Assembly: GCA_937920515.1 (NCBI GenBank)
Contig: CALEUG010000018.1
Coordinates: 1 to 48,754, forward strand
Direction: 5' to 3'
Source of the DNA: an uncultured bacterium
GTDB taxonomy: Bacteria; Acidobacteriota; Aminicenantia; Aminicenantales; Saccharicenantaceae
DNA length: 48,754 nucleotides
This document shows, piece after piece, positions 29,004 through 44,801 of the stretch. The notes under the pieces were generated by a model, which saw nothing but the letters and a program-made list of their open reading frames with translations, was not told the DNA's origin and made no database searches. A program made the translations under genes and the position numbers. How positions within the stretch are numbered: position 1 is the stretch's first letter; each line of letters opens with the position of its first letter.

Positions 29004-29607
29004 CTGGAATACCTCCCTTGATGAGCATCATGGCTTCGGTCCGGGTGGCCGGGTTGTTGCGGAATGAACCCCGGACGGCCGAGGTCACCGTTATGGCTTT
29101 GGGCTTTTTTACGCCGCGCATCGACATGCACAGATGTTCGGCCTCGATGACCACCATGACACCCAGAGGGTTCAGGGTGGCATTCAGGATGTCAGCCACC
29201 TGCTTGGTCAGGCGCTCCTGAACCTGCAGCCTCCGGGCCAGGGTATCCACCAGCCGGGCGATCTTGCTCAGGCCGATGATTCGACCTTCTTTCGGGATGT
29301 AGGCCACGTGAGCCACGCCGGCAAAAGGCAGCAGGTGATGTTCGCAGAAAGAATAGAGAGGAATATTTCTGATCAGGACCAGCTCGTCGTGCCGTTCGTC
29401 CTGAAAAACTTCCAGGTCTTCCTGCGGGTCAATCCGGGTTCCGCCCAGGATGTCATCCATCATCCTGGCCACCCTGCCCGGAGTGCCCTTCAGACCGGGA
29501 CGGTCCGGGTCTTCGCCTATGCCCTCGATTACCAGCCGGACACCCTGTTCAATTTTTTTCAGGTCCATTTTTTTGAGCTGACTGTGTTTCCTGTTTTTTC
29601 TGGCCAT
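28987..29607 (-). CDS. folE: GTP cyclohydrolase I
   Basis: First enzyme of folate (dihydroneopterin triphosphate) synthesis from GTP. Landmarks are [41 protein letters not shown] with the zinc ligands Cys and His, [20 protein letters not shown] and [14 protein letters not shown] with the second Cys. The 206-residue length fits the family. The end overlaps metG by 17 bases, and larC ends 7 bases upstream of folE, so larC-folE-metG form one transcript. Confidence 0.95.
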
Positions 29608-29614
29608 GTTATCC

Positions 29615-30775
29615 TCAGACTTTGAAATTTTTTATCACCTCGGTGATGACCTGTTTCAAGGGCACATTCAGTTTTTGAGCCAGATGGAGGCAATCGTCGT
29701 ATTCAGGCTGGAAGTTAACGGCTTCCTCACCGTAGTAGCTGACTTTTACCCTGACCTTATGCCCGCGCCATCTGACTTCTTTAATCTCTCTTCTCAGAAC
29801 TCTTCTTTCAACCGGATAGTATCTCAGCCCGATGGTGGTGGTTTCCCGGAAGATAGCCTCGATCAGCCTGTCTATTTTATCAACCTCGGCCAGCACGGTC
29901 AATTTGCTGCCCAGACGATTTTTTTTCATGACTATCGGGGTGAGGTAGGCTTCCAGGGCTCCGAGTTCCCGCACCCGGTTGATAAAGCTGCCCAGAAGCT
30001 GGGGGGAAGCGTCATCAACGGTGGCCTCAACCACCTGAATTTTCCTGGCCGGCTGGAACAACTCGCGTTCTCCATAGAAAGCCCGGAGGAGGTTGGGCTG
30101 GAACTGGAGTTTTCGGTGACCGAGTCCATAGCCGATCTTTTCATAGGTGAGTTCGGGCCAGTAACTAAGGCTGCGGCCCAGTGTGGTCAGGATGGCCGCT
30201 CCGGTTGGGGTGAGCAGCTCGACCTTTTCCTGACTGCCGTAAACCGGAAATCCCCTCATCAATTCACCCACGGCCGGCGGTGGCACCGGCAGCCGGCCAT
30301 GAGCCGTATCCACGTAACCGCCGCCCAGGTTAACCGGGGAGAAGTAAACCTCGCTCACCCCCAGTTTCCATAACAACCAGCAGGATCCGACTATGTCCAC
30401 CAGGGCATCGTCAGCGGCTGCCTCGTGGAGATGGGCAGCGCGGAAGCTACGGCCGTGAACCCGGCTTTCGGCCTCAAACAGGCGCCTGAAAATCTTCAGA
30501 GCGTCCTGTTTTACCCGGGGCTCCAGCCTGGAGACGGTGATAATTCTCTCCACCTGGGAAAAGGTCCTTTCCTTAGAGGCGGCTGGGGCCTTGACCTCAA
30601 CCTGAAGCCCGGAAAATCCGCTGGAGCTGGCTTTACTGGCCCGGACTTCCACCTTGAGTTTTAGCCGCTGGATTGCCTGCCGGAATTCCTCCAGTGGAAC
30701 TCCCAGCGACAGCAGAGAGGCCAGGATCATGTCGCCGCTGGCCCCGGCCGAGCAATCAAAATAGATGAATTTCAT
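29615..30775 (-). CDS. larC: LarC-like nickel insertion protein (DUF111 family)
   Basis: LarC makes the nickel-pincer nucleotide cofactor of lactate racemase and related enzymes by inserting nickel. The start [25 protein letters not shown] is the family hallmark, followed by [52 protein letters not shown] and the C-terminal domain with [15 protein letters not shown] start at 30775 (386 aa); an open frame 17 codons longer lacks support. Partners LarB and LarE and any racemase are not in the window. Confidence 0.88.
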
Positions 30776-30891
30776 TTTTACCTGCCCTGAGAAAATTTGA
30801 GTAAAGAATAGCTGTTTTTTTGCCAAAAATCAAAGACCGGCGGCGATCGCTTTCCAAATTTTCCGGGCTGGTTTATAATTTAAGGCTAACC

Positions 30892-30920
30892 TTGACTGTT
30901 ATAGCAAATAAATTATATAT
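30892..30920 (+). promoter_or_regulatory. Candidate sigma70-type promoter of mtnP
   Basis: TTGACT at 30892-30897 is followed after 16-17 bases by an AT-rich TATATA/ATATAT at 30914-30920. The ATG at 30943 lies 23 bases downstream, behind AAGAGGTAAG. The divergent larC start is about 120 bases to the left. Confidence 0.5.
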
Positions 30921-30942
30921 GAATAGCTTCAAGAGGTAAGAG

Positions 30943-31827
30943 ATGGGCAAGCCAGATATCCCTTCAATCAAGGTCGGTATCCTGGGGGGCACGGGCCTGT
31001 ACCAGATAGAAGGCCTTAATAACGTTACCACCCTTGACCTGGAAACTCCCTTTGGCCGGCCTTCCGATAGTTATGTTGTCGGCGAGCTGGAAGGTGTCGG
31101 AGTGGCTTTCCTGAGCCGGCATGGACGCGGACATCACTTGCTGCCGGCCGAGGTGAATTACCGGGCCAACATCTACGGTTTCAAGCTGCTGGGAGTGGAA
31201 AAGCTTATCTCGGTTAACTCGGTCGGTTCACTCCGGGAAGAAATCAAGCCCCGGGATATAGTCCTGGCCGACCAGTTTTTTGACCGGACCCACCGGCCGA
31301 ACACCTTTTTCGGTCAGGGGGTGGTGGCCCATATCAGCCTGGCAGACCCGGTCTGCCCGGTGCTTTCCAGACACCTGTTTGAGGTGGCCAGAGGGCTGGG
31401 ATTATCCGTTCATCCCCGCGGCACCTATGTCTGCATAGAAGGTCCGGCTTTTTCCACCAGGGCTGAGTCCAGAATCTACCGCCTGCTTCAGGCCGACGTT
31501 ATCGGCATGACCGCAGCCACCGAGGCCAGGCTGGCCCGGGAAGCGGAAATCTGCTACGTTACCATGAACCTGGTTACCGATTATGATGTCTGGAAAGCCG
31601 ACGAAGAGTCGGTCAGCGTCGAGCTGGTTCTGGAAAACCTGAGGCATAATATCGAGCACGCCAGAGCCATTATCAAGCAGGCTGTATCCAGCATCAGTCA
31701 ACTCCAGGATAAAGACTGCCTGTGCCAGCAGGCCCTGCAGAATGCCATCGTCACCAGCCCGGAAGCCAGGAACCGGGAAACCGTGGAGAAGCTGGCTCCG
31801 CTCATCTCGAAATACATAAAGAAATAG
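30943..31827 (+). CDS. mtnP: S-methyl-5'-thioadenosine phosphorylase
   Basis: Splits methylthioadenosine to adenine and methylthioribose 1-phosphate, the first step of methionine salvage after polyamine synthesis. The 294-residue product begins VGILGGTGLYQIEGL and has SRHGRGHHLLPAEVNYRANIY, SVNSVGSLREEIKPRDIVL, CIEGPAFSTRAESR and VIGMTAATEARLAREAEICY, all typical of the phosphorylase/purine-nucleoside family with MtnP-type loops. An inosine/guanosine-type specificity cannot be fully excluded. A PfkB kinase gene follows after 11 bases. Confidence 0.92.
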   Translation: MGKPDIPSIKVGILGGTGLYQIEGLNNVTTLDLETPFGRPSDSYVVGELEGVGVAFLSRHGRGHHLLPAEVNYRANIYGFKLLGVEKLISVNSVGSLREEIKPRDIVLADQFFDRTHRPNTFFGQGVVAHISLADPVCPVLSRHLFEVARGLGLSVHPRGTYVCIEGPAFSTRAESRIYRLLQADVIGMTAATEARLAREAEICYVTMNLVTDYDVWKADEESVSVELVLENLRHNIEHARAIIKQAVSSISQLQDKDCLCQQALQNAIVTSPEARNRETVEKLAPLISKYIKK

Positions 31828-31838
31828 AAAGGAAGCCG

Positions 31839-32738
31839 GTGAGCCTTGTCATCGTCGGTTCAGTAGCTTTTGATACCATTGAAACACCCTTCGAGCGGCG
31901 GGACAGGATAATCGGCGGTTCGGGGACTTATGCGGCTCTGGCTGCCAGCTTTTTCACCAGGCCGGGCCTGGTCTCGGTGGTCGGGCGGGATTTCCCGTCC
32001 AGGTTTCTGGACAAGCTCCGCTCCCGGAAAATCGACCTGGCCGGGCTCAAGGTAAAACAGGGCAGGACCTTCCACTGGCACGGACGTTACGAGCGGGACC
32101 CGAACCTCAGGACCACGGTGAAGACGGAGCTGAATGTTCTGCAGGATTTTAAGCCCGTCCTTCCTGACAGTTACCGAAAGGCCGAGCTGGTTTTTCTGTC
32201 CAACCTGGACCCGGAGAGCCATGATTTTATCCTGGACCAGCTGGTGGCGGTCAAACTGGTGGCCATGGACACCATCCGCTACTGGATAGAGAACAAACCG
32301 GAAGCCCTGCTCCGGACCATTCAGAAAGTCGACATTCTTTTTGTCAACGATGAGGAATGCCGGCTGATAGCAGAAGAGCTGAACCTGGTCCGGGCCGGGC
32401 GCAAGCTCCAGGCCGCCGGCCCCAGGGTCATCGTCGTCAAGAAAGGCGAGCACGGGGCCATGCTTTTCGGTAAAAATTTTGTGTTCGGTGTGGTGGCCCA
32501 TCCCTGCGAACGGGTGGTGGACCCGACCGGGGCCGGGGATGCTTTTGCCGGGGCCTTCCTGGGTTACCTGGACAGCGCCGGGCATTTCCACCAGCGGGAA
32601 TTGAGGAGAGCGGCCGTATACGGCAACCTGGTGGCCTCTCTGGTGGTCGAGGATTTCGGGGTGGACGGTTTACTCCGGGCCAGCCAGCTTGACCTCATCA
32701 ACCGCTACCGCCAGTTCCGCCGGTTGTGTGCTTTTTGA
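31839..32738 (+). CDS. PfkB/ribokinase-family sugar or nucleoside kinase
   Basis: 299-residue kinase starting with GTG at 31839, after AAAGGAAG. The ATP/anion-hole signature is clear: RVVDPTGAGDAFAGAFLGYL, with the catalytic Asp in GAGD. The N-terminus SLVIVGSVAFDTIETP and GGSGTYAALAASFF are PfkB-like, and VNDEECRLIAEE is the usual mid-domain element. The substrate is not evident. Its close link to mtnP suggests a ribose- or nucleoside-type substrate, but that is inference. tnaA follows after 58 bases. Confidence 0.85.
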   Translation: MSLVIVGSVAFDTIETPFERRDRIIGGSGTYAALAASFFTRPGLVSVVGRDFPSRFLDKLRSRKIDLAGLKVKQGRTFHWHGRYERDPNLRTTVKTELNVLQDFKPVLPDSYRKAELVFLSNLDPESHDFILDQLVAVKLVAMDTIRYWIENKPEALLRTIQKVDILFVNDEECRLIAEELNLVRAGRKLQAAGPRVIVVKKGEHGAMLFGKNFVFGVVAHPCERVVDPTGAGDAFAGAFLGYLDSAGHFHQRELRRAAVYGNLVASLVVEDFGVDGLLRASQLDLINRYRQFRRLCAF

Positions 32739-32796
32739 GTGCAAAATGAATCGAATTTGATATGATATCATCATCTTTTTCTGAAGAGGTAATAAT

Positions 32797-34179
32797 ATGA
32801 GCAGGATAAAAGCCCCGGTAGAACCTTTCCGGATCAAGACGGTCGAGAGGATAAAAATGACCGACCGCCGGGAAAGAGAAAATATCTTGAAGCAGGCCGG
32901 GTACAATGTCTTCAACATCCCGGCCGAAAAGGTTTTCATCGACCTGCTGACCGACTCCGGCACCTCGGCCATGAGCGACAATCAGTGGGCGGGGCTTTTA
33001 ATCGGAGATGAGTCCTACGCCGGAGCCAGGAACTTTTTTCACCTGGAAGCGGCCGTTAAGAATATTTTCTGTTTCAAGCATGTCATCCCCACCCACCAGG
33101 GAAGGGCGGCCGAAAGGATACTTTTTGAGGTCCTGGTCCAGAAAGGGGATTATGTTCCCAACAACATCCATTTTGATACCACCAGAGCCAACGTTGAGGC
33201 CCGGGGAGGGAGAGCAGTGGACCTGGTCATTGACGATGCCTACGACCCGGATTCCATTCATCCTTTTAAAGGCAACATGGACGTCGATAAATTGAAAAAG
33301 TTCATCGAGAAAAAAGGCGTCAAGAAAATACCGCTGGTCATGATGACCATCACCAACAACAGCGGCGGGGGGCAGCCGGTCTCCATCAAGAACATCAAGG
33401 AAGTCAGCCAGGTCTGCAAGCAGCATAAAATTCCGCTCTTCTTCGATGCCTGCCGCTTTGCCGAGAATGCCTACTTTATCAAGAAGAGGGAGAAGGGCTA
33501 CGAGAAAAAGTCAATCCTGGAAATAGCCCAGGAAATTTTTTCCTACGGCCAGGGGGCGACCATGAGCGCCAAGAAGGATGCCCTGGTCAACATCGGCGGC
33601 TTCGTGACCGTGGACGACGACCTGCTGGCTGAAAAATTGAAAAACCTGCTGATTCTGAGCGAGGGTTTCCCGACCTACGGCGGCCTGGCCGGCCGCGACC
33701 TGGAAGCCATTGCCCGCGGGCTGGAGGAAGTTCTGGAAGAAGATTACCTGGAATACCGGATAAACCAGGTGGCCTACCTGGGAGGACGGCTGGATGAAGC
33801 CGGTGTGCCTGTTTTCAAACCCGTCGGCGGTCATGCCGTCTACCTGCTGGCCGACAGGTTCCTGCCTCATATTCCCAGGCACCAGTACCCGGGCTGGGCC
33901 CTGACCGTGGCTCTCTACCGCGAGGCCGGAATCAGGGCGGTGGAAATCGGCGGGGTTATGTTCGCCCGGAAGGACGAGAAAACCGGCAGGGAGGTCTACC
34001 CCAGGCTGGAGCTGGTTCGTCTGGCCATACCCCGGCGGGTTTATACCAGCGCTCACCTGGATTATGTGGCCGGGGCCATAATTGACCTTTACCAGAACCG
34101 GGATAAAGTCCGCGGCCTGCGCATAGTGCGGGAATCACGCTACCTGCGCCATTTCACCGTCAGGATGGAAGAGGTCTGA
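32797..34179 (+). CDS. tnaA: Tryptophanase (tryptophan indole-lyase)
   Basis: PLP enzyme that splits L-tryptophan into indole, pyruvate and ammonia. The PLP lysine is in MSAKKDALVNIGGF; other family segments are FIDLLTDSGTSAMSD, THQGRAAERI, FDACRFAENAYFIK and PTYGGLAGRDLEA. Tryptophanase and tyrosine phenol-lyase are close relatives. Here HFDTTR has Asp where E. coli tryptophanase has Asp137 and the lyase Thr124, and RAVEIGG has Ile where the lyase has Arg381; both favour tryptophanase. No tnaC-like leader fits in the 58-base gap to the upstream gene. A weak promoter (TTGAGT, 17 bases, TGATAT, from 32735) may exist. 460 residues, normal length. Confidence 0.9.
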   Translation: MSRIKAPVEPFRIKTVERIKMTDRRERENILKQAGYNVFNIPAEKVFIDLLTDSGTSAMSDNQWAGLLIGDESYAGARNFFHLEAAVKNIFCFKHVIPTHQGRAAERILFEVLVQKGDYVPNNIHFDTTRANVEARGGRAVDLVIDDAYDPDSIHPFKGNMDVDKLKKFIEKKGVKKIPLVMMTITNNSGGGQPVSIKNIKEVSQVCKQHKIPLFFDACRFAENAYFIKKREKGYEKKSILEIAQEIFSYGQGATMSAKKDALVNIGGFVTVDDDLLAEKLKNLLILSEGFPTYGGLAGRDLEAIARGLEEVLEEDYLEYRINQVAYLGGRLDEAGVPVFKPVGGHAVYLLADRFLPHIPRHQYPGWALTVALYREAGIRAVEIGGVMFARKDEKTGREVYPRLELVRLAIPRRVYTSAHLDYVAGAIIDLYQNRDKVRGLRIVRESRYLRHFTVRMEEV

Positions 34180-34373
34180 ACCCCGGGTTTTTTCTGCGCT
34201 TTTTTCCGGTTCATTTTCTTTTAGCCCATCTTGAGTATCCCTGGCCTGGAGGCTCAACGAGGATGGTCATTTCCAGCAAATTTCCAAGGAATTATTTAGG
34301 GGGCTGTCTAATTTCTATGAAACATCAGCCAGGATGTTAAAACGGGCAAGAAATTCTGGAAGAGGAGGCTAAA

Positions 34374-35348
34374 ATGAGAAAGAGCCTGATTTCAGGTTTG
34401 TTGTTTCTGCTCCTGACCATGTTTCTGGTCAGCAACGGTTTTTCCTGGGGCTCGGCCACCCATGCTTTCATCAGCAAGAAGATAGGCCGGTACTACCTGA
34501 CGCTCGATTTCCAGGAGCTTTATGGCGGTCTGGCTCCTGACCTTTTTAACTACAATTTTGACCTCTACGCCGACCCCGTTCTCAGGGCCTTTACTCATGG
34601 GGTGCCCGACAATGAGGGTTTTATGTCAGTCTGGGAAAAGGCCACCTACCGTAATTTCCAGAAAGCGCTGGCTTACGGCTATGTGGTTCATAACGATGTC
34701 TGGGGCGCCGACTTCACCGCCCATCATCAGGCCCAGACCTTAACCCCTCCGGCCGATTTCCCGCTGGTTCCGGGAGAAATCGAGCCCGGTTACGTTATCA
34801 TCAAGGCCGTGGCCCTGAACTCTGACCCGACCCTTAACAATTATTTCGAGTCCCTCGGGCTTTATAACCATAATCCAGAGCAATTCCGCCTGCGCCTCGA
34901 GCTCTGCCATAACCTGGTGGAGGCGGCCGGGGACCTGATTATTAAGAAAGTTGATACGCGGGTGGGCGAAGACATAATCGCCGCGGCCGTGGTCAGGGAC
35001 AGGAGCTTCCAGAATTTGCTTATTACTGCCCTCAACAATCCGGATTACAATTCAGCCATCAGGGAAAACGAGGCCATGTTCCGGAGGTTTATGATCCAGT
35101 ACGGAGCTATATTGTTACTGCCGGAGTTCAGGGCCTTAAAAGGCCTGGCCGAGTCGCTGGCTCAATCCGGCGTCGTTTTCCTGAAAAAACTTGCCGGAAT
35201 CGATGTCCCGCTGGAGCGAGCGACTGAAATTGCCGAGTACGGGCTGAAGAAATCTATCCAGCTCTGCTCTCCTGATTATATGAACGAAATCAGAAAGACG
35301 ATCGAAAAGGTAAGGCTGGAACTGCGTAGCCGGAATATAAGATACTGA
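34374..35348 (+). CDS. Zinc-dependent phospholipase C-like exported protein
   Basis: 324 residues with a signal peptide likely cut at VSNGFS, leaving tryptophan as the first mature residue (WGSATHAFISKKI). Bacterial zinc phospholipases C use the N-terminal Trp as a metal ligand. Further likely ligands are Asp in GLAPDLF, His in FTHG, the cluster VVHNDVWGADFTAHH, and His and Glu in CHNLVEAAGD. The pattern resembles the zinc-dependent phospholipase C family, though the spacing in the middle cluster differs from the Bacillus enzyme. Substrate and activity are unproven. GAGGAGG precedes the ATG and a terminator follows. Confidence 0.6.
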   Translation: MRKSLISGLLFLLLTMFLVSNGFSWGSATHAFISKKIGRYYLTLDFQELYGGLAPDLFNYNFDLYADPVLRAFTHGVPDNEGFMSVWEKATYRNFQKALAYGYVVHNDVWGADFTAHHQAQTLTPPADFPLVPGEIEPGYVIIKAVALNSDPTLNNYFESLGLYNHNPEQFRLRLELCHNLVEAAGDLIIKKVDTRVGEDIIAAAVVRDRSFQNLLITALNNPDYNSAIRENEAMFRRFMIQYGAILLLPEFRALKGLAESLAQSGVVFLKKLAGIDVPLERATEIAEYGLKKSIQLCSPDYMNEIRKTIEKVRLELRSRNIRY

Positions 35349-35372
35349 CCGCCTTCAAGATGGATGGTTGAG

Positions 35373-35405
35373 AGGGGAGAGCCCGCCTCTCCCCTTACTT
35401 TATAT
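35373..35405 (+). terminator. Terminator after the phospholipase C-like gene
   Basis: AGGGGAGAG (35373-35381) pairs perfectly with CTCTCCCCT (35387-35395) around a five-base loop and is followed by TACTTTATAT. It lies 24 bases past the stop codon at 35348. The T-tract is interrupted, so efficiency is uncertain. Confidence 0.65.
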
Positions 35406-35479
35406 CCCTATGAAGGCAGCCCGCTTCCTCCAGCCCGGATAATTGCCCTCATAAAGCGGGAGCCGGGCCGCCCTGGTTT

Positions 35480-36766
35480 TCAGCTCTTACCGTTTTGGTC
35501 GTAGGCATTTATATCCAGGAAACCGTGACCCGAAAGGTTGAACAGAATGTTAATTTCAGTCCTTGATTTTTTGGCAGCCAGGGCCTCATCTATAACCGCG
35601 GCGATGGCATGGGACGATTCCGGGGCCGGCAGGATGCCTTCGGTTTTCAGGAAAATTTCGGCGGCAGTGAAGACCTGCTTCTGGGAATAAGCCCGGGCCT
35701 CAACCAGCCCCATTTTTACCAGGTGGCTGACCAGCGGGGCCATCCCGTGGTAGCGCAGCCCGCCGGCGTGGATCGGGGGCGGAACAAAATCTCTCCCCAG
35801 ACTGTGCATGTAAAGCAGGGGAGTGAGGCCAACAGAATCGCCGTGGTCGTACTGAAGCTGTCCGGCAGTTAAAGAGGGACAGGCCTCGGGCTCAACCGCG
35901 ATGAAACGCTGGCCATTTTTTCCTTGAAGCTTATTGGCCATAAAGGGAAAGCTCAAACCGGCAAAGTTGGAACCTCCGCCAACACAGCCGATGACCAGCT
36001 CCGGCTCGACCCCGAATTCCTGACACTGCCTGCCGGCTTCCAGCCCGATAACCGTCTGGTGCAGGAGCACTGCATCCAGCACCGAGCCGAGGGAATAGCG
36101 GGTGGCCGGCTGACTCACGGCGGCTTCCACCGCTTCGGATATGGCTATGCCCAGGCTGCCGGGGTGCTCCGGGTTTTCCTGGTAGTATTTTCGGCCGGAG
36201 GAGGTGGTTGGACCCGGACTTTCCACCACCTGACCCCCAGAGAGCTGAATCATTATCCGGCGGCCCGGTTTTTGCCTGAAGCTCGACCTTACCATGAAAA
36301 CCCTGGCCCGCAGGCCGAACTGGCTGCAGGCGTAGGCCAGGGCCGAACCCCACTGCCCGGCTCCGGTCTCGGTGGTCAGCGTTTCAATCCCTTCCTGGCT
36401 GGCCAGGTAGGCCTGCATCAGGGCGGTGTTGGTCTTATGGCTACCGGCCGGTCCCACTCCTTCATACTTGTAGAAAATTCTGGCAGGGGTATCCAGGTAT
36501 TTTCTCAGGCCCGAGGCGTAAATTAATGGGGTAGGGCGATACCGGGCATAGGCTTCCAGGACCGTGGCTGGAATCCTGATAAATCGTTCGGTTGAGATTT
36601 CCTGCTGGATAAAACCGCGGCAGAAAACAGATTCCAGTTCTTCCGGCTGGAGAGGCTGGAGGGTCAGGGGGTTAAGGGGCGGCGGTGGAAGTTCCGGCAG
36701 GTCGGCCTTGATGTTATAAAAATACTCGGGCAGGTAACCCATTTCCCGGGAATCGTATCTTTTCAT
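35480..36766 (-). CDS. trpB2: Tryptophan synthase beta chain, TrpB2 type
   Basis: PLP enzyme joining indole and serine to tryptophan. The sequence is the TrpB2 subtype: long N-terminus (MGYLPEYFYNIKADLPELPPPPLNP region), RPTPL, the PLP lysine in GPAGSHKTNTA, catalytic Glu in TTETGAGQWGSALAYA, the PLP phosphate loop GCVGGGSNFAG and LSGHGFLD near the end. TrpB2 enzymes typically work without TrpA, and no trpA is in the window. The ATG at 36766 (428 aa) is fixed by CAGGAGG six bases upstream; a longer open frame exists but covers the leader. A tryptophan-sensitive leader is predicted upstream. The gene lies opposite tnaA's cluster. Confidence 0.92.
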   Translation of the reverse strand: MKRYDSREMGYLPEYFYNIKADLPELPPPPLNPLTLQPLQPEELESVFCRGFIQQEISTERFIRIPATVLEAYARYRPTPLIYASGLRKYLDTPARIFYKYEGVGPAGSHKTNTALMQAYLASQEGIETLTTETGAGQWGSALAYACSQFGLRARVFMVRSSFRQKPGRRIMIQLSGGQVVESPGPTTSSGRKYYQENPEHPGSLGIAISEAVEAAVSQPATRYSLGSVLDAVLLHQTVIGLEAGRQCQEFGVEPELVIGCVGGGSNFAGLSFPFMANKLQGKNGQRFIAVEPEACPSLTAGQLQYDHGDSVGLTPLLYMHSLGRDFVPPPIHAGGLRYHGMAPLVSHLVKMGLVEARAYSQKQVFTAAEIFLKTEGILPAPESSHAIAAVIDEALAAKKSRTEINILFNLSGHGFLDINAYDQNGKS

Positions 36767-36769
36767 CTT

Positions 36770-36881
36770 TTTCCTCCTGAGCTTAGAAATTAAAAATAGA
36801 AAAATACTCGGTTCAAAAATATGGGGGGAAACGAAGGCAGACTCCGGGCGGACTAAGCCGCCCACCAGAACCAGGAGGAAA
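36770..36881 (-). promoter_or_regulatory. Anti-Shine-Dalgarno/Shine-Dalgarno pair controlling trpB2
   Basis: On the minus strand TTTCCTCCTG (36881 to 36872) in the leader peptide coding region is an exact reverse complement of CAGGAGGAAA (36779 to 36770), the trpB2 Shine-Dalgarno region. A flanking G-U pair could extend it to 11. The arms are 92 bases apart. Pairing would bury the trpB2 ribosome-binding site. The anti-site overlaps the first Trp codon of the leader peptide. A separate hairpin, GGGCGG (36863-36858) with CCGCCC (36851-36846), holds the leader stop codon in its loop. Complementarity is seen; the control mechanism is inferred. Confidence 0.65.
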
Positions 36882-36930
36882 GGCAGAAAGATGCACTGGC
36901 GGGGAAGGTGGCCCGACTTGAAAGGTGCAT
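36853..36930 (-). CDS. Predicted Trp-rich leader peptide of trpB2
   Basis: Short reading frame of 25 codons starting at ATG 36930, seven bases after AAGGA (36942-36938), and ending at TAG 36855-36853. It starts MHLSSRATFP and ends SSWFWWAA-stop, so three of the last six sense codons are Trp (TGG at 36873-36871, 36867-36865, 36864-36862). Trp is the rarest amino acid, and a WFWW cluster at the end of a short frame just ahead of a tryptophan synthase gene is the classic look of an attenuator leader. A longer ATG start 15 bases upstream exists, but it would lie almost at the predicted transcription start. Confidence 0.75.
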   Translation of the reverse strand: MHLSSRATFPASASFCLSSWFWWAA

Positions 36931-36953
36931 CGTTAAATCCTTCATCAGCGGTA

Positions 36954-36981
36954 ATTTTAGCCGTAGAAAAAATTTTGTCAA
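36954..36981 (-). promoter_or_regulatory. Sigma70-type promoter of the trpB2 leader
   Basis: On the minus strand TTGACA (36981 to 36976, perfect -35) is followed after 16 bases by TAAAAT (36959 to 36954, five of six -10 bases). The predicted transcript starts near 36947, 17 bases before the leader ATG and about 180 bases before trpB2. Confidence 0.75.
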
Positions 36982-37251
36982 GCAGGTTAAACAAATTTTT
37001 TGCCTTTGTCTCGCGCTCCGATAGACAGACAGGGTGGTCGCAGGCCCGAGGCCTGACAACCGTGGGACCGGTTTAATCTGCAGAACCTTCCGGAATATCC
37101 ACCGACCTGCGGACTTTCGGTCTTGAATCCGGCTCAGGTCAACGATAAAATTTTTCAGTATCATCGGCACAAGGAACGAACTCTCCCCCGGTTTTTCCTT
37201 CTCCTGCAGGACGGTCGTGGACTTTATCGACCCGGGCTATAAGATATGTGC
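36982..37251. other. Intergenic region between trpB2 promoter and M28 peptidase gene
   Basis: No convincing gene in either direction. It contains one short perfect hairpin, CAGGCC (37041-37046) with GGCCTG (37050-37055) around a three-base loop, without a T-run. It separates two divergent transcription units. Confidence 0.5.
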
Positions 37252-37279
37252 TTGAAATTAGCCTTCAAATTTCTTAAAT
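37252..37279 (+). promoter_or_regulatory. Candidate promoter of the M28 peptidase gene
   Basis: TTGAAA (37252-37257) and TTAAAT (37274-37279) are 16 bases apart. Transcription would begin only a few bases before the ATG at 37292, leaving little room for a Shine-Dalgarno sequence, so this is a weak candidate. Confidence 0.3.
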
Positions 37280-37291
37280 TACCGGAATAAG

Positions 37292-38989
37292 ATGATGTTA
37301 AATGTCAGATGTTACCGCCGGGTCTTACCGGCTCTGCTTATCGTTTTATTTTCCTGCCTGAGCTTGCTCCCGGGGCGGCAGCCTGCTCCGCTCTTTCTGG
37401 TTCAGGTTCAGAAAAACCAGCCAGGCCTGGAAAATGTCCTGTGGCAGGAAAAGATAGAATGCCTGCTGGAACTTGAAGGTAGCTACCTTCTCCGACTCGA
37501 CCGGGAAGAAAACTTAAAACTCAGGAGCCGGGGAATCAGCTTCAAGCGGCTGGCCTTCTACGTCCACAACCGGGTGTACCTGGTGGCCAGGATAAGCCGC
37601 GCCGCCGAGCTGGAAAATATATCTTCCCGTTTCAGCGTTTTGTTTCTTGAGGGTTCTGATTATCTGCTGGTAGCCCGGGACCCCTCAGAACTGGAAGAGC
37701 TGCCGGTCAGGGTCAGGCGAAGGCTCTTGCCGGCCAGCGGAAAAACTCTGTCGCCGGGAGTGGCCCTACCCGCGGAATTCGTCTGGCGGAGCGTTAAGGA
37801 TGAACTGTATGAACTGATAGCGGCTGAAGTCTCAGCTGACAACCTCAGGGATAGAGTCACCGCCCTGCAGAACTTCGGAACGCGTTACGCCCCGACGACC
37901 GGTTGCCTCCAGGCAGGTCAGTATATTTATGATTATTTAACCGGACTGGGTCTTCCCGCCAGTTTTCAGGATTTTTATTATAATAGCTATCTCTGCCGGA
38001 ACGTGATTTCTGAAATCCGCGGCCAGACCTACCCGGAACAGGTGGTAATAATCTGTGCCCATTATGATTCGACCTCAGACCAGCGCTGGACCCTGGCTCC
38101 CGGGGCTGACGATAATGGTTCCGGCACCGGGGCGGTGCTGGAAGCGGCCAGGATTCTGGCCGGCCGGCCTTTTGATTTCACCGTCCGGTTTATTTTATTC
38201 TCGGCTGAAGAGCAGGGGCTGGTGGGCAGCCTTCGTTACGTTCAGGAGAGATTGGACCCTTCTGAGAATATTCTGGCGGTTATCAACCTGGACATGGTGG
38301 CTTATGCCGACAGACTGCCTGAAGACCTGGACCTGATTGGCAACCGCAGCTCCAGCTGGCTGGTCGACCGGGTGGCCATTCTGAGCGAACTCTATGGACC
38401 GGTGGCCGGGAAGAAAATCATTGATGCTTCTTTTGTCTATTCAGACCATGCCTCTTTCTGGGACAGGGGAATAGCGGCTCTCTGTGTCATTGAAGATGCC
38501 AGCGTCCCCAATCCTTACTATCACAAAACGACCGATACTGTTGACACCCTCAATTTTGATTTTTACCGCTCGGCCGCCAGGGGCTCTCTGATCGGTTTGG
38601 TGGACCTGGCCCAGGTCATCAGGCCGGGGTATCCCTCAACTCCGAAAAATTTCAACCTGGGTGTCGGCAGCCACGCTTCAATTTTCAATCACCTGAAAGG
38701 CGTATTTTTAAGCTGGGAAGCGGTCCCGGGGGCTTCCGGTTATAATGTCTATCGCAGCCTGGAGCCCCGGGCCAATTTTCAGAAAATAAACAATGGCTTA
38801 ATTTATGATACACACCACGTTGATGTCCTTCTGGCGTCCGATTCGACGTTTTATTACACGGTTACGGCCGCGGACAGCCTCGGCCGGGAGAGCAATTTCA
38901 GCCGGGTTCTATCGGTCAACGCCGGTATCAGCCCCGTTAATTCGCTTCGTCATCTTTTGTGGTCATTTTTTGGTTTTTCATGGAATTGA
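37292..38989 (+). CDS. M28-family zinc aminopeptidase, secreted
   Basis: 565-residue exported peptidase. A signal peptide (LPALLIVLFSCLSLLPG) is followed by an N-terminal region of about 170 residues of unclear fold. The M28 domain has the two-zinc ligands in order: His in IICAHYDSTS, Asp in APGADDNGSGTGA, Glu pair in LFSAEEQGLVGS, Asp in VINLDMVAYA, and His in YHKTTDTVDTL. The last 100 residues (VFLSWEAVPGASGYNVYRS) look like a fibronectin type III domain. It probably digests extracellular peptides. It meets the next gene in a TGATG junction. Confidence 0.9.
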   Translation: MMLNVRCYRRVLPALLIVLFSCLSLLPGRQPAPLFLVQVQKNQPGLENVLWQEKIECLLELEGSYLLRLDREENLKLRSRGISFKRLAFYVHNRVYLVARISRAAELENISSRFSVLFLEGSDYLLVARDPSELEELPVRVRRRLLPASGKTLSPGVALPAEFVWRSVKDELYELIAAEVSADNLRDRVTALQNFGTRYAPTTGCLQAGQYIYDYLTGLGLPASFQDFYYNSYLCRNVISEIRGQTYPEQVVIICAHYDSTSDQRWTLAPGADDNGSGTGAVLEAARILAGRPFDFTVRFILFSAEEQGLVGSLRYVQERLDPSENILAVINLDMVAYADRLPEDLDLIGNRSSSWLVDRVAILSELYGPVAGKKIIDASFVYSDHASFWDRGIAALCVIEDASVPNPYYHKTTDTVDTLNFDFYRSAARGSLIGLVDLAQVIRPGYPSTPKNFNLGVGSHASIFNHLKGVFLSWEAVPGASGYNVYRSLEPRANFQKINNGLIYDTHHVDVLLASDSTFYYTVTAADSLGRESNFSRVLSVNAGISPVNSLRHLLWSFFGFSWN

Positions 38990-39609
38990 TGATAATGACC
39001 GAAAGAAGAGCAACAGGATGGGAAGCAGGCCTGGTGGTCTGGCTGCTGGGTCTGTTCTGCCTGGTGGAGCCGGCCGCATCTTCGGCAGTTGAAGCCAGGC
39101 TTTTCCTGGTTTCCGGTCTTTTTAATTTCAGGCAGGCCGAGTTCAGGGAAATCTACGGAACCATGCCGCTTTTCGGGCTGGCTTTTGATTTGTACACAAA
39201 AAACAACCTGGGACTGGAAGCGGGAGCTTGGCGGTGCAGCGGCCGGGGAGAAGCCATAACGGTGGAAGGTGAGCCGGCTGTCTATCCTCTCAGGTTCTAT
39301 CGCTGGACTTTTCCACTTCTTTTGAAATACCGCTTAAAGGCCGGGCCCTTCCAGGCCTCGGCCGGTGCTGGCCTGGCCTTTTCTGTCTATGACGAAAGCT
39401 GGGCTATGGTGGACCTGTCCTATCGTGGACAGAAGGTACATTTCCGCGGAGAGCTGGCAGCGGATATTCGTCTGGGCGGCAAGATTTATCTGCGGACAGC
39501 CCTGACCTGGGATTCAATTCCCACCGGTGTCCGCTCCCTGCTCCTGGCGGGAGGTCGGGTAAGACTGGACGGGCTGAGCCTTGGAGCCGGCCTGGGTTAC
39601 GGGTTTTAA
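38989..39609 (+). CDS. Probable outer-membrane beta-barrel protein
   Basis: 206-residue protein with a signal-like stretch (AGLVVWLLGLFCLVEPAASSA) and strand-like repeats: ARLFLVSGLFNFRQAEF, NLGLEAGAWRC, FPLLLKYRLKAGPFQASAGAGLAF, and a C-terminal LSLGAGLGYGF ending in phenylalanine, typical of barrels. The start is uncertain: ATG 38989 overlaps the upstream stop, ATG 38995 is also possible, and no good Shine-Dalgarno precedes either, so translation may be coupled to the peptidase. The function is unknown. Confidence 0.6.
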   Translation: MIMTERRATGWEAGLVVWLLGLFCLVEPAASSAVEARLFLVSGLFNFRQAEFREIYGTMPLFGLAFDLYTKNNLGLEAGAWRCSGRGEAITVEGEPAVYPLRFYRWTFPLLLKYRLKAGPFQASAGAGLAFSVYDESWAMVDLSYRGQKVHFRGELAADIRLGGKIYLRTALTWDSIPTGVRSLLLAGGRVRLDGLSLGAGLGYGF

Positions 39610-39684
39610 GCCCGTTTCTGAAGCCTGAAGAGTGAATTCATGAGCCAAAAAAATAAAGACTACTTGAACAGGGAGGTAAGCCTC

Positions 39685-41058
39685 ATGAAAAAGAAAGAGA
39701 CAGAAGAAATAAGAAATCCTGCCCGACGAGATTTTCTCAAGTTGAGCCTGGCCGGCACGGCCGGCCTCTGGCTGGGCAGCCAGGCTGGAAAGCTTGAGGC
39801 CAGGCCGGAAATTCCTTCTGATTACGGTCCGCTTTTCGCCAGCCGGCCTCTGGATGTGGTCCGCGTTGGGTTTGTCGGCGTGGGTGGCATGGGCTCGGTC
39901 CACGTCCAGAATTTTCTGAACATAGAGGGCGTGGAAATCAGGGCCATCTGCGACATCGTGGAAGAGAAGGTGGCCCGGGCCCAGAAATGGGTGGAAGAAG
40001 CCGGTTTCCCGAAACCGAAAGGCTATTCGCGCGGTCCCTGGGATTTCAAGCGAATGTGCCAGGAGGAAGACCTGGACCTGGTCTTTACCGCCACTCCCTG
40101 GGAATGGCATGTGCCGGTCTGTGTCGAGGCTATGAAAAATGGCAAGCATGCGGCCACCGAGGTGCCGGCCGCGGTCACCCTGGAAGAGTGCTGGGAGCTG
40201 GTGGAAACGGCCGAGAGGTACAAAAAGCACTGCGTTATGATGGAGAATTGCTGCTACGACCGGGTGGAGTTGATGAGCCTCAACATGGTCCGGCGCGGCC
40301 TGCTGGGCGAAGTGCTTCATGCCGAGGCCGGCTATCTCCACGACCTGCGCGACGTTAAATTCAGCAGCGAAGGGGAAGGATTGTGGCGCCGGCAGCATTC
40401 CTGGACCAGGAACGGCAACCTCTACCCGACCCATGGCCTCGGCCCGGTGGCTCAGTGCCTGAATATCAACCGGGGCGATGTTTTTGATTATCTGGTTTCC
40501 ATGAGCTCGCCCTCGCGTGGCCTGCAGCTTTACGCCCGGGAAAAATTCGGTCCGGATTCGCCCCAGGCCAGGGAAAGGTTTGCCCTGGGCGATGTCAACA
40601 CCTCGCTGATCAAGACCAGGCTGGGTAAAACCATCATCCTCATTCACGATACCAACCTGCCACGTCCCTACTCCCGGATTCACCTGATTCAGGGGACCAG
40701 GGGAATCCTGCAGAAATGGCCCGACCGGATTTACGTAGAGGGTCGCAGCCCGGATCACCGCTGGGAGGACATCGAGGCCTATGCCGAAGAGTTTGAGCAT
40801 CCCCTCTGGAAGAAATTGAGCCAGAAGGGCGAAGGCCGCGGCCACGGGGGAATGGATTTTATAGAAGATTACCGGCTGGTGCAGTGCCTGAGAGCGGGCA
40901 CTCCCATGGACATGAACGTCTACGATGCGGCCGCCTGGAGCGCGGTCTCGGCCCTGAGCGAAAAATCGGTGGCCAGGAAGTCCGAGCCGGTGAAGTTTCC
41001 CGATTTTACCCGCGGGGCCTGGAAGACCACGCCGCCGCTGGGCATCATAGAAGGCTGA
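39685..41058 (+). CDS. GH109 family glycosidase (NAD-dependent alpha-N-acetylgalactosaminidase type)
   Basis: Gfo/Idh/MocA-fold protein that fits glycoside hydrolase family 109, whose members hydrolyse alpha-N-acetylgalactosamine with bound NAD by a redox mechanism. A twin-arginine signal, ARRDFLKLSLAG, starts it. The NAD-binding VGFVGVGGMGSVHVQNF, EVPAAVTLEE, MMENCCYDRVELM, YLHDLRDVKF and NLYPTHGLGPVAQ follow; Tyr and His of YPTH correspond to the catalytic pair reported for the family. I start at ATG 39685 (457 aa), seven bases after GGAGGT. It may take GalNAc from mucins or other glycans. A simple oxidoreductase cannot be fully excluded. Confidence 0.85.
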   Translation: MKKKETEEIRNPARRDFLKLSLAGTAGLWLGSQAGKLEARPEIPSDYGPLFASRPLDVVRVGFVGVGGMGSVHVQNFLNIEGVEIRAICDIVEEKVARAQKWVEEAGFPKPKGYSRGPWDFKRMCQEEDLDLVFTATPWEWHVPVCVEAMKNGKHAATEVPAAVTLEECWELVETAERYKKHCVMMENCCYDRVELMSLNMVRRGLLGEVLHAEAGYLHDLRDVKFSSEGEGLWRRQHSWTRNGNLYPTHGLGPVAQCLNINRGDVFDYLVSMSSPSRGLQLYAREKFGPDSPQARERFALGDVNTSLIKTRLGKTIILIHDTNLPRPYSRIHLIQGTRGILQKWPDRIYVEGRSPDHRWEDIEAYAEEFEHPLWKKLSQKGEGRGHGGMDFIEDYRLVQCLRAGTPMDMNVYDAAAWSAVSALSEKSVARKSEPVKFPDFTRGAWKTTPPLGIIEG

Positions 41059-41219
41059 GCGCCGGATAAGCCGTCTCGATTGTTGCGATTGCTTTCTGTC
41101 GGGCAGGAAGCCTTCCTCAGCCCGCTACCTTCTGGACTTATCCTTATCCAGGCGGACCTGGTTGCGGGCGGTCACGGCGGCGGACCCGGTCAGTCCGGCC
41201 GGTTCCTGTAATAAAACTC

Positions 41220-41247
41220 TTGATCTCCGGAACGGCTTAAGTATAAT
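41220..41247 (+). promoter_or_regulatory. Promoter of the tetR-exporter operon
   Basis: TTGATC (41220-41225) and TATAAT (41242-41247) lie 16 bases apart, a strong sigma70-type match. The predicted start of transcription falls at or next to the ATG at 41254, so the mRNA may be leaderless. Confidence 0.7.
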
Positions 41248-41275
41248 GAAACTATGAAAACGAATAAAGTTTCAT
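41246..41275. promoter_or_regulatory. Inverted repeat, probable TetR operator
   Basis: ATGAAACT (41246-41253) and AGTTTCAT (41268-41275) are perfect inverted arms separated by 14 bases. The left arm overlaps the -10 hexamer and the spacer begins with the ATG of the tetR-type gene. TetR regulators usually bind such palindromes next to their own gene, so autorepression of the operon is likely. An mRNA hairpin is an alternative reading. Confidence 0.6.
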
Positions 41276-41916
41276 CAGTATCATCACTGCCGGCCGACCT
41301 GAAGCCTCGCATCCTAAAGCGGGCGCGGGAGCTCTTCTTCAGGTACGGCTACAGCCGCCTGAGCATGGACCAACTGGCCGGGGACCTGGGAATCAGCAAG
41401 GCCACCCTCTACCGCTATTTCCCGGACAAGGAAGCCCTGCTGCGGGCGGTCATGACCGGGACCAGGGAATGGCTGTTGAGCCAGTTGCAGGCAATCGTCA
41501 GGGACAACCGGCTTCCGGTCAAAGTTAGGCTGACCGCCTACCTTGAATTCGTAAGCCGGTTTCTGTCCGGCCTGAGCCGGGATTTCATCCGGGACCTGAG
41601 GCAGAAGCTGCCCGACCTCTGGCAGGAGATGGAAACCTTCCGCCGGCAGCAGGTTTTCCCCCTGGTGTCCGAGGTCATTCTGGAAGGGGTGAGAAAAGGT
41701 GAGATAAAATCGAACCTGGACGGCCGGCTGTTCCTGGAGATGTTCTGGTACCTGGTGCAGGAATTCATGAATCCCGACTGGATAATCAGCCATGATTATT
41801 CGCCCTCGGAGCTTCTGGCCAGCATAATAGACGTTATTTTTCACGGAATTTTCGTGGAAGAAAAACCCGGAAAGATGGCCGGTGGCCAGCCTGCCGGGAA
41901 AGGGAGGAAGAAATGA
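41254..41916 (+). CDS. TetR-family transcriptional regulator
   Basis: 220-residue regulator with an N-terminal helix-turn-helix: RARELFFRYGYSRLSMDQLAGDLGISKATLYRYFPDKEALL. The ligand-binding C-terminal half is helical and not recognisable. The gene heads an operon with a membrane fusion protein and two-ATPase ABC exporter and overlaps the next gene by four bases, so it most likely senses a compound that the pump exports. No upstream Shine-Dalgarno is seen. Confidence 0.9.
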   Translation: MKTNKVSSVSSLPADLKPRILKRARELFFRYGYSRLSMDQLAGDLGISKATLYRYFPDKEALLRAVMTGTREWLLSQLQAIVRDNRLPVKVRLTAYLEFVSRFLSGLSRDFIRDLRQKLPDLWQEMETFRRQQVFPLVSEVILEGVRKGEIKSNLDGRLFLEMFWYLVQEFMNPDWIISHDYSPSELLASIIDVIFHGIFVEEKPGKMAGGQPAGKGRKK

Positions 41917-42926
41917 AAGCCCCGGAATCGAGTAAAAATAGATCACGGGTGGCTCTTAATTATTTTACTATTATTGCTTTTATTGTTTTTATACTCGTCA
42001 TGATAACGGCCTGTCGGAAAGCAGCGGTCAGCGACCGGATACAGGTTACCGGAACAATTGAATGCCGCACGGCCAGGATCAGCCCCAGAGTCAGTGGCCG
42101 GGTACTAAAGGTGCTGGTGGAGGAAGGCCAGGCGGTCGAGCCGGGGCAGCCCCTGGTAGAACTTGACCACGAATACCTCGACCTGCAGCTCAGGCAGGCC
42201 GAAGCTTCTGTGGCCGCCTCCCGGGCCCAGCTCGAGCTGTTGAGAAAAGGAGCCCGAAGCGAAGACATTGCCCAGGCCGAACAGCAGCTTAAACAGTCGG
42301 AAATAGGCCTGGAACAGGCCAGGAAAGATGCCGGGCGTTTCCGAAGTCTGTACGCCAGTGGCAGCATTACTCAGAAACAAAAAGAAGATGCAGAAACCAG
42401 GCTGGCCCTGGCTGAGGCTCAACACCAGCAGGCTCAGCAAGCTTTGAAAAAGCTCAAATCCCTGGTCCGCCCCGAAGAAATTGAAGCGGCCGAAGCCAGG
42501 CTGCGTCAGGCGGAAGCGGCCGTGGATCTCCTGAAAAAAAACATAGAAGATTCTACCGTCATCTGTCCGGTTTCCGGCGTAATCACTGAAAAAGCGGTGG
42601 AGCCGGGAGAGCTGGTCAACCCGGACACCACCCTGGTTACCGTTTCCTGCCTCGACCCGGTCTATCTCTGGGTTTACGTCACGGCGGCCGAACTGGGGCG
42701 GGTCAAGCTGGGCGGAGCGGCCGGGGTCACCATAGACAGTTTCCCGGGGAAAACCTTTGCGGGAAAAATTGTTTACATCTCGCCCGAAGCTGAATTCACC
42801 CCCAAAAATATCCAGACCAGAGAAGACCGGGTGAAACTGGTTTTTGCGGTCAAGATTGAACTGCCCAACCCGGAAGGGCAACTCAAGCCCGGGCTGCCGG
42901 CGGAAGCTGTAATCAGAACTGAATGA
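41913..42926 (+). CDS. HlyD/YbhG-type membrane fusion protein
   Basis: 337-residue periplasmic adaptor. A hydrophobic N-terminus ends MITAC, a possible lipobox. The lipoyl/beta-barrel halves appear as ISPRVSGRVLKVLVEEGQAVEPGQPLVELD and PVSGVITEKAVEPGELVNP. In between is an alpha-helical hairpin rich in Ala, Gln and Glu (about residues 75-205) for docking to an outer-membrane channel. Such proteins link an inner-membrane ABC exporter to a TolC-like channel. It resembles YbhG and is followed by its ABC genes after 12 bases. Confidence 0.9.
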   Translation: MKAPESSKNRSRVALNYFTIIAFIVFILVMITACRKAAVSDRIQVTGTIECRTARISPRVSGRVLKVLVEEGQAVEPGQPLVELDHEYLDLQLRQAEASVAASRAQLELLRKGARSEDIAQAEQQLKQSEIGLEQARKDAGRFRSLYASGSITQKQKEDAETRLALAEAQHQQAQQALKKLKSLVRPEEIEAAEARLRQAEAAVDLLKKNIEDSTVICPVSGVITEKAVEPGELVNPDTTLVTVSCLDPVYLWVYVTAAELGRVKLGGAAGVTIDSFPGKTFAGKIVYISPEAEFTPKNIQTREDRVKLVFAVKIELPNPEGQLKPGLPAEAVIRTE

Positions 42927-42938
42927 CCGAAGGCTGAC

Positions 42939-43868
42939 ATGGCTGGAACGGTCCTCTCTGCCCTTAACCTGAAAAAGGCCTACGGGCCGGTTGTGGCCTT
43001 ATCATCATTTTCCCTGTCCCTACGGGCCGGAGAATTTCTCTGCCTGGTCGGCCCGGACGGAGCTGGAAAGAGCACGGCCCTGAGGTTACTTTGCGGGCTG
43101 GAAAAGCCTGATTCGGGAGAAATTGAGCTTTTCGGCCAGAGAGTTACCCGGTTCAGTTGGGCCCTGCGGGCCCGATTGGGTTACCTGCCGCAGAGTTTCA
43201 GCCTGTATGAGGACCTGAGCGTTGCGGAAAACCTGGTCTTTTTCGCCGAGCTCTATGGAATGGCCGGCTACCGCCAGCTGATAGATTCTCTCCTGGAATT
43301 CACGCGGCTTGAGCCTTTTCGGCGCAGGCTGGCCGGCCGGCTTTCTGGGGGAATGAAACAGAAGCTGGCCCTGGCCTGCACCCTGGTGCACGAACCGGAT
43401 ATTCTTCTGCTGGATGAACCGACCACCGGGGTGGACCCGGTTTCCCGCCGTGATTTCTGGCAGATTCTTTTCCGGTTGCAGCAGCAAGGGAAGTCCATCC
43501 TGATGACCACGCCTTACCTTGATGAAGCCGAGCGAGCCAGCCGGGTGGCCTTTATTCACCAGGGAAGGATTATGGCCTGCGACCGGCCGGAAAGAATAAA
43601 GGCCGCATTCCCGGCCCGGCTGGTAGAAATAGTTACGCCGCACAGCCGCCGGCTGCAACAGGAATTTAAGCTCTGGCCCGAGCTCACCGACGTTCAGCTT
43701 TTTGGAGACCGCCTGCACCTGGCCTTACCGGAAGGATACGAACTCCAGAAATTGGCCGAGAAGCTATCACCGCTGGGTTGTGAAATTCTCAGCCTGGCCG
43801 AGGTCCCGCCCTCTCTGGAAAATGTCTTTATTTTCCTGATGAAAGAGGAGAAGAAGAGCGCACCATGA
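42939..43868 (+). CDS. ABC transporter ATP-binding protein (YbhF N-half type)
   Basis: 309-residue ATPase with Walker A GPDGAGKST, Q-loop in LPQSFSLYEDLSVAENL, signature LSGGMKQK, Walker B ILLLDEPTTGVDP. The switch-loop histidine is missing: the site reads TTPYLDEAE where most ATPases have TTHYLDEAE. In E. coli YbhF the two ATPases are fused in one chain; here they are separate overlapping genes. It probably forms a heterodimer with the next ATPase. Confidence 0.92.
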   Translation: MAGTVLSALNLKKAYGPVVALSSFSLSLRAGEFLCLVGPDGAGKSTALRLLCGLEKPDSGEIELFGQRVTRFSWALRARLGYLPQSFSLYEDLSVAENLVFFAELYGMAGYRQLIDSLLEFTRLEPFRRRLAGRLSGGMKQKLALACTLVHEPDILLLDEPTTGVDPVSRRDFWQILFRLQQQGKSILMTTPYLDEAERASRVAFIHQGRIMACDRPERIKAAFPARLVEIVTPHSRRLQQEFKLWPELTDVQLFGDRLHLALPEGYELQKLAEKLSPLGCEILSLAEVPPSLENVFIFLMKEEKKSAP

Positions 43869-44800: not shown

Positions 44801-44801
44801 G

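Follow-up and report, generated by a model that had tools for sequence, protein, structure and literature searches.

The trpB2 gene of the window (the whole stretch of DNA analysed here, 48,754 nt long and taken from an assembly of 2.56 Mb) is preceded by a leader that, judging from its own sequence and that of its relatives, very probably senses tryptophan. With moderate confidence, we interpret this leader as the Trp-specific form of a modular attenuator in which the ribosome is the sensor and which would act via premature transcription termination.

The trpB2 locus and its leader

The features of the locus are collected in Table 1. TrpB2 of the window is 91% identical to that of Candidatus Saccharicenans subterraneus, the nearest named relative. 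The protein encoded at 32797-34179 exceeds the PRK13238 cut-off and, for tnaA as well as for tyrosine phenol-lyase, scores under the equivalog cut-off; hence, we assigned it at family level. Homologues of this protein are encoded near trpB2 in 28 of 55 loci (flanks of 1.5-3 kb scanned, some loci being present twice). The same genome also has trpEGDCFBA, the trp operon being joined to shikimate genes (genes named from translations). In this supraoperon, the region upstream of trpE (L146, G000:C4:2000-21000, about 14729-14940, minus strand) contains a probably leaderless Tyr-Tyr-Trp-Tyr-Trp-Phe leader, MRLRNFSQTHLHRYYWYWFMKRVGR, read by eye, and a textbook intrinsic terminator, GACCCACCTGTTAAGCCAACAGGTGGGTC-T9, stands directly ahead of trpE. 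This leader may sense the three aromatic amino acids together.

Table 1. Positions of the trpB2 leader, trpB2 and a neighbouring gene in the window
Feature	Position	Strand	Remarks
-35 box TTGACA	36976..36981	-	16-nt spacer to the -10 box
-10 box TAAAAT	36954..36959	-	read from the sequence
Leader uORF, probably leaderless, MKDLTMHLSSRATFPASASFCLSSWFWWAA-stop, 30 codons	36853..36945	-	shorter version starts at 36930
Proposed anti-Shine-Dalgarno (anti-SD) TTTCCTCCTG	36872..36881	-	exact complement of CAGGAGGAAA
Sensor codons Trp-Phe-Trp-Trp (TGG TTC TGG TGG)	36862..36873	-	2-4 Trp in the last 8 codons in 53/53 orthologues
Hairpin	36846..36863	-	arm 1 GGGCGG 36863-36858; loop CTTAGT 36857-36852; arm 2 CCGCCC 36851-36846
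C-rich arm 3 CCCCCCA	36828-36822	-	in relatives, C peak at constant spacing from the hairpin
U-tract TATTTTT	36821-36815	-	T peak after the C peak
trpB2 Shine-Dalgarno (SD) region CAGGAGGAAA	36770..36779	-	read from the sequence
trpB2 start codon ATG	36766	-	read from the sequence
trpB2	35480..36766	-	TIGR01415 trpB_rel, 606 bits against a cut-off of 519; PRK12391
Tryptophanase/tyrosine phenol-lyase family gene (PRK13238)	32797..34179	+	convergent to trpB2, one gene between

The promoter named in the original prediction, TTGACA-16-TAAAAT, is indeed present: it agrees with the consensus at 11 of 12 positions and is the top promoter-like site on the minus strand within 29500-48754. The predicted 25-codon frame, from ATG 36930 to TAG 36853 with its Trp-Phe-Trp-Trp-Ala-Ala end, exists as well, but its start codon has to be revised. 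An in-frame ATG at 36945-36943 lies 8 nt past the -10 box, at the position relative to the promoter that is conserved in relatives; the uORF would therefore comprise 30 codons and, by the spacing between -10 box and ATG, is probably translated from a leaderless mRNA. Among the leader elements (cassettes) found upstream of trpB2 and of other genes (see below), an in-frame start 4-12 nt after the -10 box, where the transcription start is expected, is present in 50 out of 57, and 48 of these 50 starts are ATG. This count covers 57 of 83 cassettes, leaving out 24 without a promoter scoring at least 9 and two hisG cassettes with a misread frame; the seven lacking a fitting start are G032, G223, G186, G337, L231, L235 and L236. 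Moreover, all 56 hairpin-bearing trpB2 leaders have a TTGAC 81-151 nt ahead of the TGG of the hairpin, and in all 56 the Trp frame is open for at least 15 codons upstream, the other two frames being open in 79% and 70%.

Conservation was assessed in 142 genomes of Aminicenantia, 72 of which have a trpB2-like match at E ≤1e-80. Upstream regions of 75 genes were taken, comprising 54 orthologues (at least 62% identity) and 21 distant paralogues; in G363, whose trpB2 extends across two contigs, the N-terminal part was taken. All 54 orthologues are preceded by a leader with Trp codons that leads into a GC hairpin, so that in each of them a conserved RNA helix overlaps or directly follows the sensor codons. 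The hairpin has the form GGGCGG-N6-CCGCC in 53 of them, and G017 has a GC-run variant, recognized by eye. The last eight codons up to the hairpin include two Trp in 12, three in 37 and four in 4 of the 53 pattern-bearing orthologues, all of which thus have a short ORF with clustered cognate codons. The Trp-codon cluster expected from an alignment of relatives is consequently there, in support of the earlier proposal that a Trp-codon leader most likely controls trpB2 through ribosome stalling. As for the distant paralogues, G404 and G405 display the same hairpin plus Trp codons; in G338, G339 and G382, Trp codons accompany stems that, by eye, are quite unlike it; G374 is a doubtful case; and upstream of the other 15 of the 21 there is nothing obvious resembling a Trp leader or hairpin. 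The 56 hairpin-bearing regions out of 75 were used below, the other 19 being G017, G338, G339, G382 and those 15 paralogues.

Searches against Rfam leader families returned no match at gathering score in the window, and at E ≤5 the sole match in the leader was to a lncRNA family, far below its gathering score. Outside Aminicenantia, a loose W..W short frame precedes trpB2 in 8 of 56 loci. Trp-rich frames in two MAGs, L079 (..STSWSWWWPLAAIHFYI) and L103 (..NWNHWSWWPQRAI), are the only leader-like ones of these eight and are possible independent Trp leaders.

The original prediction had reported no hairpin followed by a T-run. Indeed, none adjoins one; a perfect GC hairpin nevertheless exists, with CCCCCCA and TATTTTT farther on. 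It begins inside the last Trp codon, and its 6-nt loop overlaps the stop codon. A simple terminator scan misses this element because the T-run does not adjoin the hairpin: instead of a terminator hairpin with an immediate U-run, as in the classical arrangement, the U-tract lies about 22 nt past the stable hairpin, and a weaker long-range helix between arms 1 and 3 is the sole helix abutting it. Taken at full length, the 208-nt leader of the window has no greater folding stability than shuffled sequences (z 0.04). The loop is 6 nt long, without gaps, in all 59 aligned cassettes (41 of the 56 trpB2 leaders and 18 others). When the 56 trpB2 leaders are aligned on the hairpin, C makes up 56% at +15-19; at +25-29, T accounts for 61% and G for 3%; from about +35, base composition is ordinary again. 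In the 42 of 56 leaders in which it could be measured, the distance from the hairpin to the U-tract is 25.5 ± 8.5 nt (18-28 nt in 35 of the 42) and that from the U-tract to the trpB2 ATG is 59 ± 20 nt. The U-tract thus tracks the hairpin and not the trpB2 start, and therefore belongs to the leader.

The genus to which the window belongs stands apart from the others. The stop codon lies at most 3 nt behind arm 2 in 41 of the 42 trpB2 leaders outside this genus and in the hairpin loop in all 14 leaders within it, and several genus members (e.g. G032, G020 and G016) have a poor U-tract or none at the usual place. Owing to these two features, the cassette of the window may be drifting away from the common form, perhaps with an added layer of control at translation.

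Cassettes upstream of other amino-acid genes

A plain pattern, TGGTGGGCGG..CCGCCC, hit 82 of 297 genomes of the phylum, with a large chance background in GC-rich genomes, and was for this reason replaced by covariance models. R1 was built from the 56 trpB2 leaders and revealed additional copies upstream of other genes in the same genomes; R2 was built from the 59 cassettes with the sensor codons left out. R2 yielded 81 matches at E ≤1e-3 in the 142 genomes, 58 of them training sequences. By inspection, 80 precede an amino-acid gene and carry cognate codons (54 known trpB2 regions, three more trpB2-like genes and 23 others), and L278 looks like chance. Weaker R2 matches L275, L281, L282, L284, L285 and L287-L290 were likewise read as chance, L278 being the only one of the rejected matches at E ≤1e-3.

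In total, 27 non-trpB2 cassettes, four of which fall below the E 1e-3 threshold, were found, all with cognate codons. They precede genes for DAHP synthase (8; Phe/Tyr/Trp codons, e.g. ..FFYFWAVPAA), trpE (3; Trp codons, ..WYSINWWWAVHAAL), asnA (10; Asn codons, ..SNNNRAVPTAR), cysK/M (3; Cys codons, ..CSCHCWAVPAAR) and hisG (3; His codons, ..RHHHVFHGRSRAH), and their distances from the starts of these five kinds of gene are very different. Nine of the 27 genes were compared with NCBIfam, and seven pass a named-family cut-off: two DAHP synthases, TrpE (L241), two AsnA, CysK/M (L238) and HisG (L280). L279 is just under its cut-off (cysKM, 342.7 against 344.15), and the trpE fragment of L228 has no NCBIfam match at 1e-30; the remaining 18 genes were named from their translated starts. 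A tenth protein run in NCBIfam, that of L240, is TrpB-like. In the genome of the window, hisG is preceded by a short leaderless-looking ORF, MKGKTEYYIKYCLTRTCLH, read by eye (L146, about 16796-16855, plus strand), with one His only and without the cassette hairpin.

The 27 cassettes have a similar C-then-T profile at a fixed distance from the hairpin, a pattern that is partly selected, since both R1 and R2 include the downstream columns. Arm 1 is read as UGG-GCG-G in Trp leaders and as His-GGG-CG in hisG leaders; hence, it is the RNA and not the peptide that is conserved. Stem variants still pair, by eye, as in GGGUGG/CCACCC of L276, and quite different stems occur in G338/G339 and L235/L236. 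Arm 1 is GGGUGG in the three asnA cassettes L276, L277 and L283, the latter two retaining CCGCCC through G-U pairing. In the sample of 297 genomes from the phylum, R2 matches at E ≤0.005 are present in 24 of 33 genomes of the class versus 2 of 264 outside it. The two weak outside matches, G042:C35:48993-49052 (E 0.002) and G314:C260:31045-31105 (E 6e-4), might mark a wider spread of the cassette. With codons and hairpin conserved class-wide and cognate codons swapped in front of other amino-acid genes, it is hardly credible that the leader is just a small translated ORF or a chance Trp cluster devoid of a regulatory role.

Level of control and candidate mechanism

The conserved uORF, its cognate codons, the hairpin, the position of the stop codon, the spacing of the C-rich arm and U-tract and that between promoter and AUG can all be read directly from the letters. 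From these we infer how the cassette might work. The transcript would start at or within a few nucleotides of the uORF AUG, so that the leader would be translated leaderless. When Trp-tRNA is scarce, a ribosome would stall on the Trp codons and cover arm 1, and RNA polymerase would continue through a nearly G-free, hardly folding stretch into trpB2. When Trp-tRNA is ample, the ribosome would clear the Trp codons, leaving arm 1 free, and transcription would stop some 22 nt beyond the hairpin, at the C-rich arm and U-tract. In the simplest case, arm 1 would pair with the C-rich arm just ahead of the U-tract. Outside the genus of the window, a terminating ribosome at the stop codon behind arm 2 would hide arm 2 and free arm 1, given a footprint with the stop codon in its middle and a length of 26 nt, the figure applied to Mycobacterium tuberculosis ilvB1 in the excerpt of PMC13236596. 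Control of trpB2 at the level of transcription termination is probable, and the presence in the same genome of a textbook intrinsic terminator after the Tyr/Trp/Phe leader of trpE speaks for this level.

The role of the arm 1:arm 3 helix as the terminator is put forward more tentatively, at somewhat less than even chances. By a loose rule, and partly owing to composition, arm 1 can pair both with arm 2 and with an arm before the U-rich stretch in 44 of 56 leaders; in the window, six of seven positions pair. Examples are UGGUGGG with CCCACCA in G033 and UGGGCGG with CCGCCCA in G007 and G014, and in G017 ACCCCCA pairs, by eye, with a changed arm 1. The best downstream partner of arm 1 ends at most 4 nt from the U-tract in 33 of 74 cassettes (25 of 50 trpB2 and 8 of 24 others), against a uniform expectation of about 9 of 72 positions; nine of the 83 cassettes, without five T in eight, were left out of this count. 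The excess over shuffles (mean z -0.96) reflects in part the C-then-U order rather than pairing. Arm 3 of a leader pairs no better with its own arm 1 than do arms 3 of other species (0.49 of swaps), a comparison that says little because arm 1 hardly varies. Overall, the evidence for this pairing is suggestive, with a contribution from composition. Against it, arm 1 should first be taken up by the competing local hairpin with arm 2, and under a wider mask of 31 nt a ribosome at the stop codon hides four of the six nucleotides of arm 1. Moreover, the stop codon lies in the loop in the window's genus, so that both arms would be covered there by a ribosome terminating translation. In addition, the 13 cassettes with Asn or Cys codons form this helix only weakly (-3.0 to -9.2 kcal/mol).

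This weakness, together with the absence of a terminator hairpin adjoining the U-tract, would fit Rho-dependent attenuation, in which Rho would load at a site split by the hairpin, namely the C/U-rich, G-poor RNA flanking it: stalling on the Trp codons would place a ribosome over part of this site and block Rho, and ribosome release would expose it. Indeed, trpB2 leaders have a C/U-rich, A-poor stretch upstream of the codons and a C-rich, G-poor stretch downstream, and the excerpt of PMC1262725 suggests something similar for mycobacterial Cys leaders without terminators. However, a U-tract mostly 18-28 nt from the hairpin, followed by ordinary composition by about +35, is unlike a Rho site, and most of the downstream C-rich RNA would remain exposed during stalling. 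We regard Rho-dependent control as unlikely.

The original prediction had placed control at translation: once the leader ribosome has gone, the C/U tract before the Trp codons would pair with the trpB2 SD, and a stalled ribosome would cover it. The exact ten-base complementarity between 36881-36872 and 36779-36770 is real and is seen also in some near relatives. In the window, the pairing beats shuffles of the same C/U tract (z -2.8), and z is at or below -1.6 in 8 of 14 genus members, with extremes ranging from G032 (z -3.8) to G022 and G016, which are positive, but in only 5 of the 42 other leaders. Over all 56 leaders, it barely exceeds shuffles (mean z -0.50, median -0.26). Conserved SD and anti-SD arms, expected on this proposal, did not emerge from the comparison of relatives: when SDs are swapped between species, the own SD equals or surpasses only 55% of the foreign ones, no preference being 50%. 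Likewise, folding with the stalled ribosome masked does not free the SD of the window, its unpaired fraction going from 0.22 to 0.24; the genus mean rises from 0.09 to 0.19 (n=14), and that elsewhere from 0.240 to 0.245 (n=42). A conserved anti-SD:SD pairing released by stalling was thus not found, apart from some signal in the genus, where a translational layer may exist beside the main control. Since shuffles, species swaps and mask folding give little outside the genus, the anti-SD is at most a local addition and not the general mechanism. The position of the cassette before five other kinds of gene at such varied start distances also argues against translational attenuation, which we consider quite improbable as an explanation of the leader. 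Pairing of the downstream C/U tract with the SD, another candidate, gave a mean z of -0.08 against shuffles and was rejected.

There is also a modest chance that the OFF switch represents a new kind of termination, set by the position of the ribosome relative to the polymerase on the U-tract. The cassette would then be a leaderless plug-in in which the last codons are swapped (Trp, Phe/Tyr/Trp, Asn, Cys or His) and one near-invariant hairpin, stop codon, C-rich spacer and U-tract are kept. In one variant, a ribosome at the stop codon would shove RNA polymerase off the weak rU:dA hybrid at the U-tract, independently of any hairpin, and a ribosome stalled on the sensor codons would be too far back to push. 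The distance from stop codon to U-tract is much alike in cassettes sensing different amino acids and is close to the spacing of a collided ribosome-polymerase pair; such a push would, furthermore, account for cassettes with a weak arm 1:arm 3 helix. It is nevertheless speculative, gives the near-invariant hairpin no role and has to contend with a stop codon about 12 nt farther back in the genus of the window, so that we consider it very improbable.

Relation to known attenuators and biological meaning

The trp attenuator of E. coli is of the classical kind, to which those of Corynebacterium and Streptomyces described in the excerpt of PMC1262725 also belong. These share with the trpB2 leader Trp codons beside competing helices and an ON state under Trp starvation, but terminate in a GC-rich hairpin with a U-run behind it, whereas in Aminicenantia the stable hairpin stands apart from the U-tract. 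Closer in layout is the leaderless Sinorhizobium meliloti trpL/trpE(G) leader, for which the excerpt of PMC7298713 reports a uORF with Trp codons, an RNA 5' end at the uORF ATG and ribosome-dependent transcription attenuation through two mutually exclusive structures. That leader, however, governs trpE(G) and not trpB2, and the excerpt mentions no platform common to other amino-acid genes; in Aminicenantia, by contrast, the hairpin is near-invariant and the U-tract about 22 nt away. Leaderless poly-Cys short ORFs of mycobacteria (Canestrari 2020, as cited in the excerpts of PMC9031893 and PMC13236596) resemble the cassette in having a leaderless uORF with a run of cognate codons that controls amino-acid genes, but they occur in another phylum, concern one amino acid and are described as working by translation attenuation. 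For the geometry of the original prediction, the nearest precedent we met is the actinobacterial LEU element upstream of leuA, in which, according to the excerpt of PMC1262725, leader Leu codons pair with the leuA SD. SD pairing of this type is unsupported in the window and in most of its relatives.

The Rho-dependent TnaC attenuator (see also PMC8429421 and PMC3902921) is similar to the trpB2 leader in its short Trp-containing leader and in the possible involvement of Rho. It differs in that it responds to free Trp and is ON in its presence, whereas the trpB2 leader, with its cluster of Trp codons, would be expected to be ON without Trp. Among the matches listed in our literature search (titles and starts of abstracts), none describes an attenuator in Aminicenantes or their phylum, nor a single attenuator platform common to different amino-acid genes by codon swap. 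To our knowledge, amino-acid attenuators are built separately for each operon.

Aminicenantia appear to employ a single, nearly invariant RNA platform for five kinds of amino-acid signal, with a few codons swapped. The cassette also offers a clean test case of attenuator function with the stable hairpin away from the U-tract. As regards TrpB2, the Trp-starvation leader of its own, the tryptophanase/tyrosine phenol-lyase family neighbour and a genome that already has trpEGDCFBA point to a role in the recovery of indole or Trp during Trp shortage.
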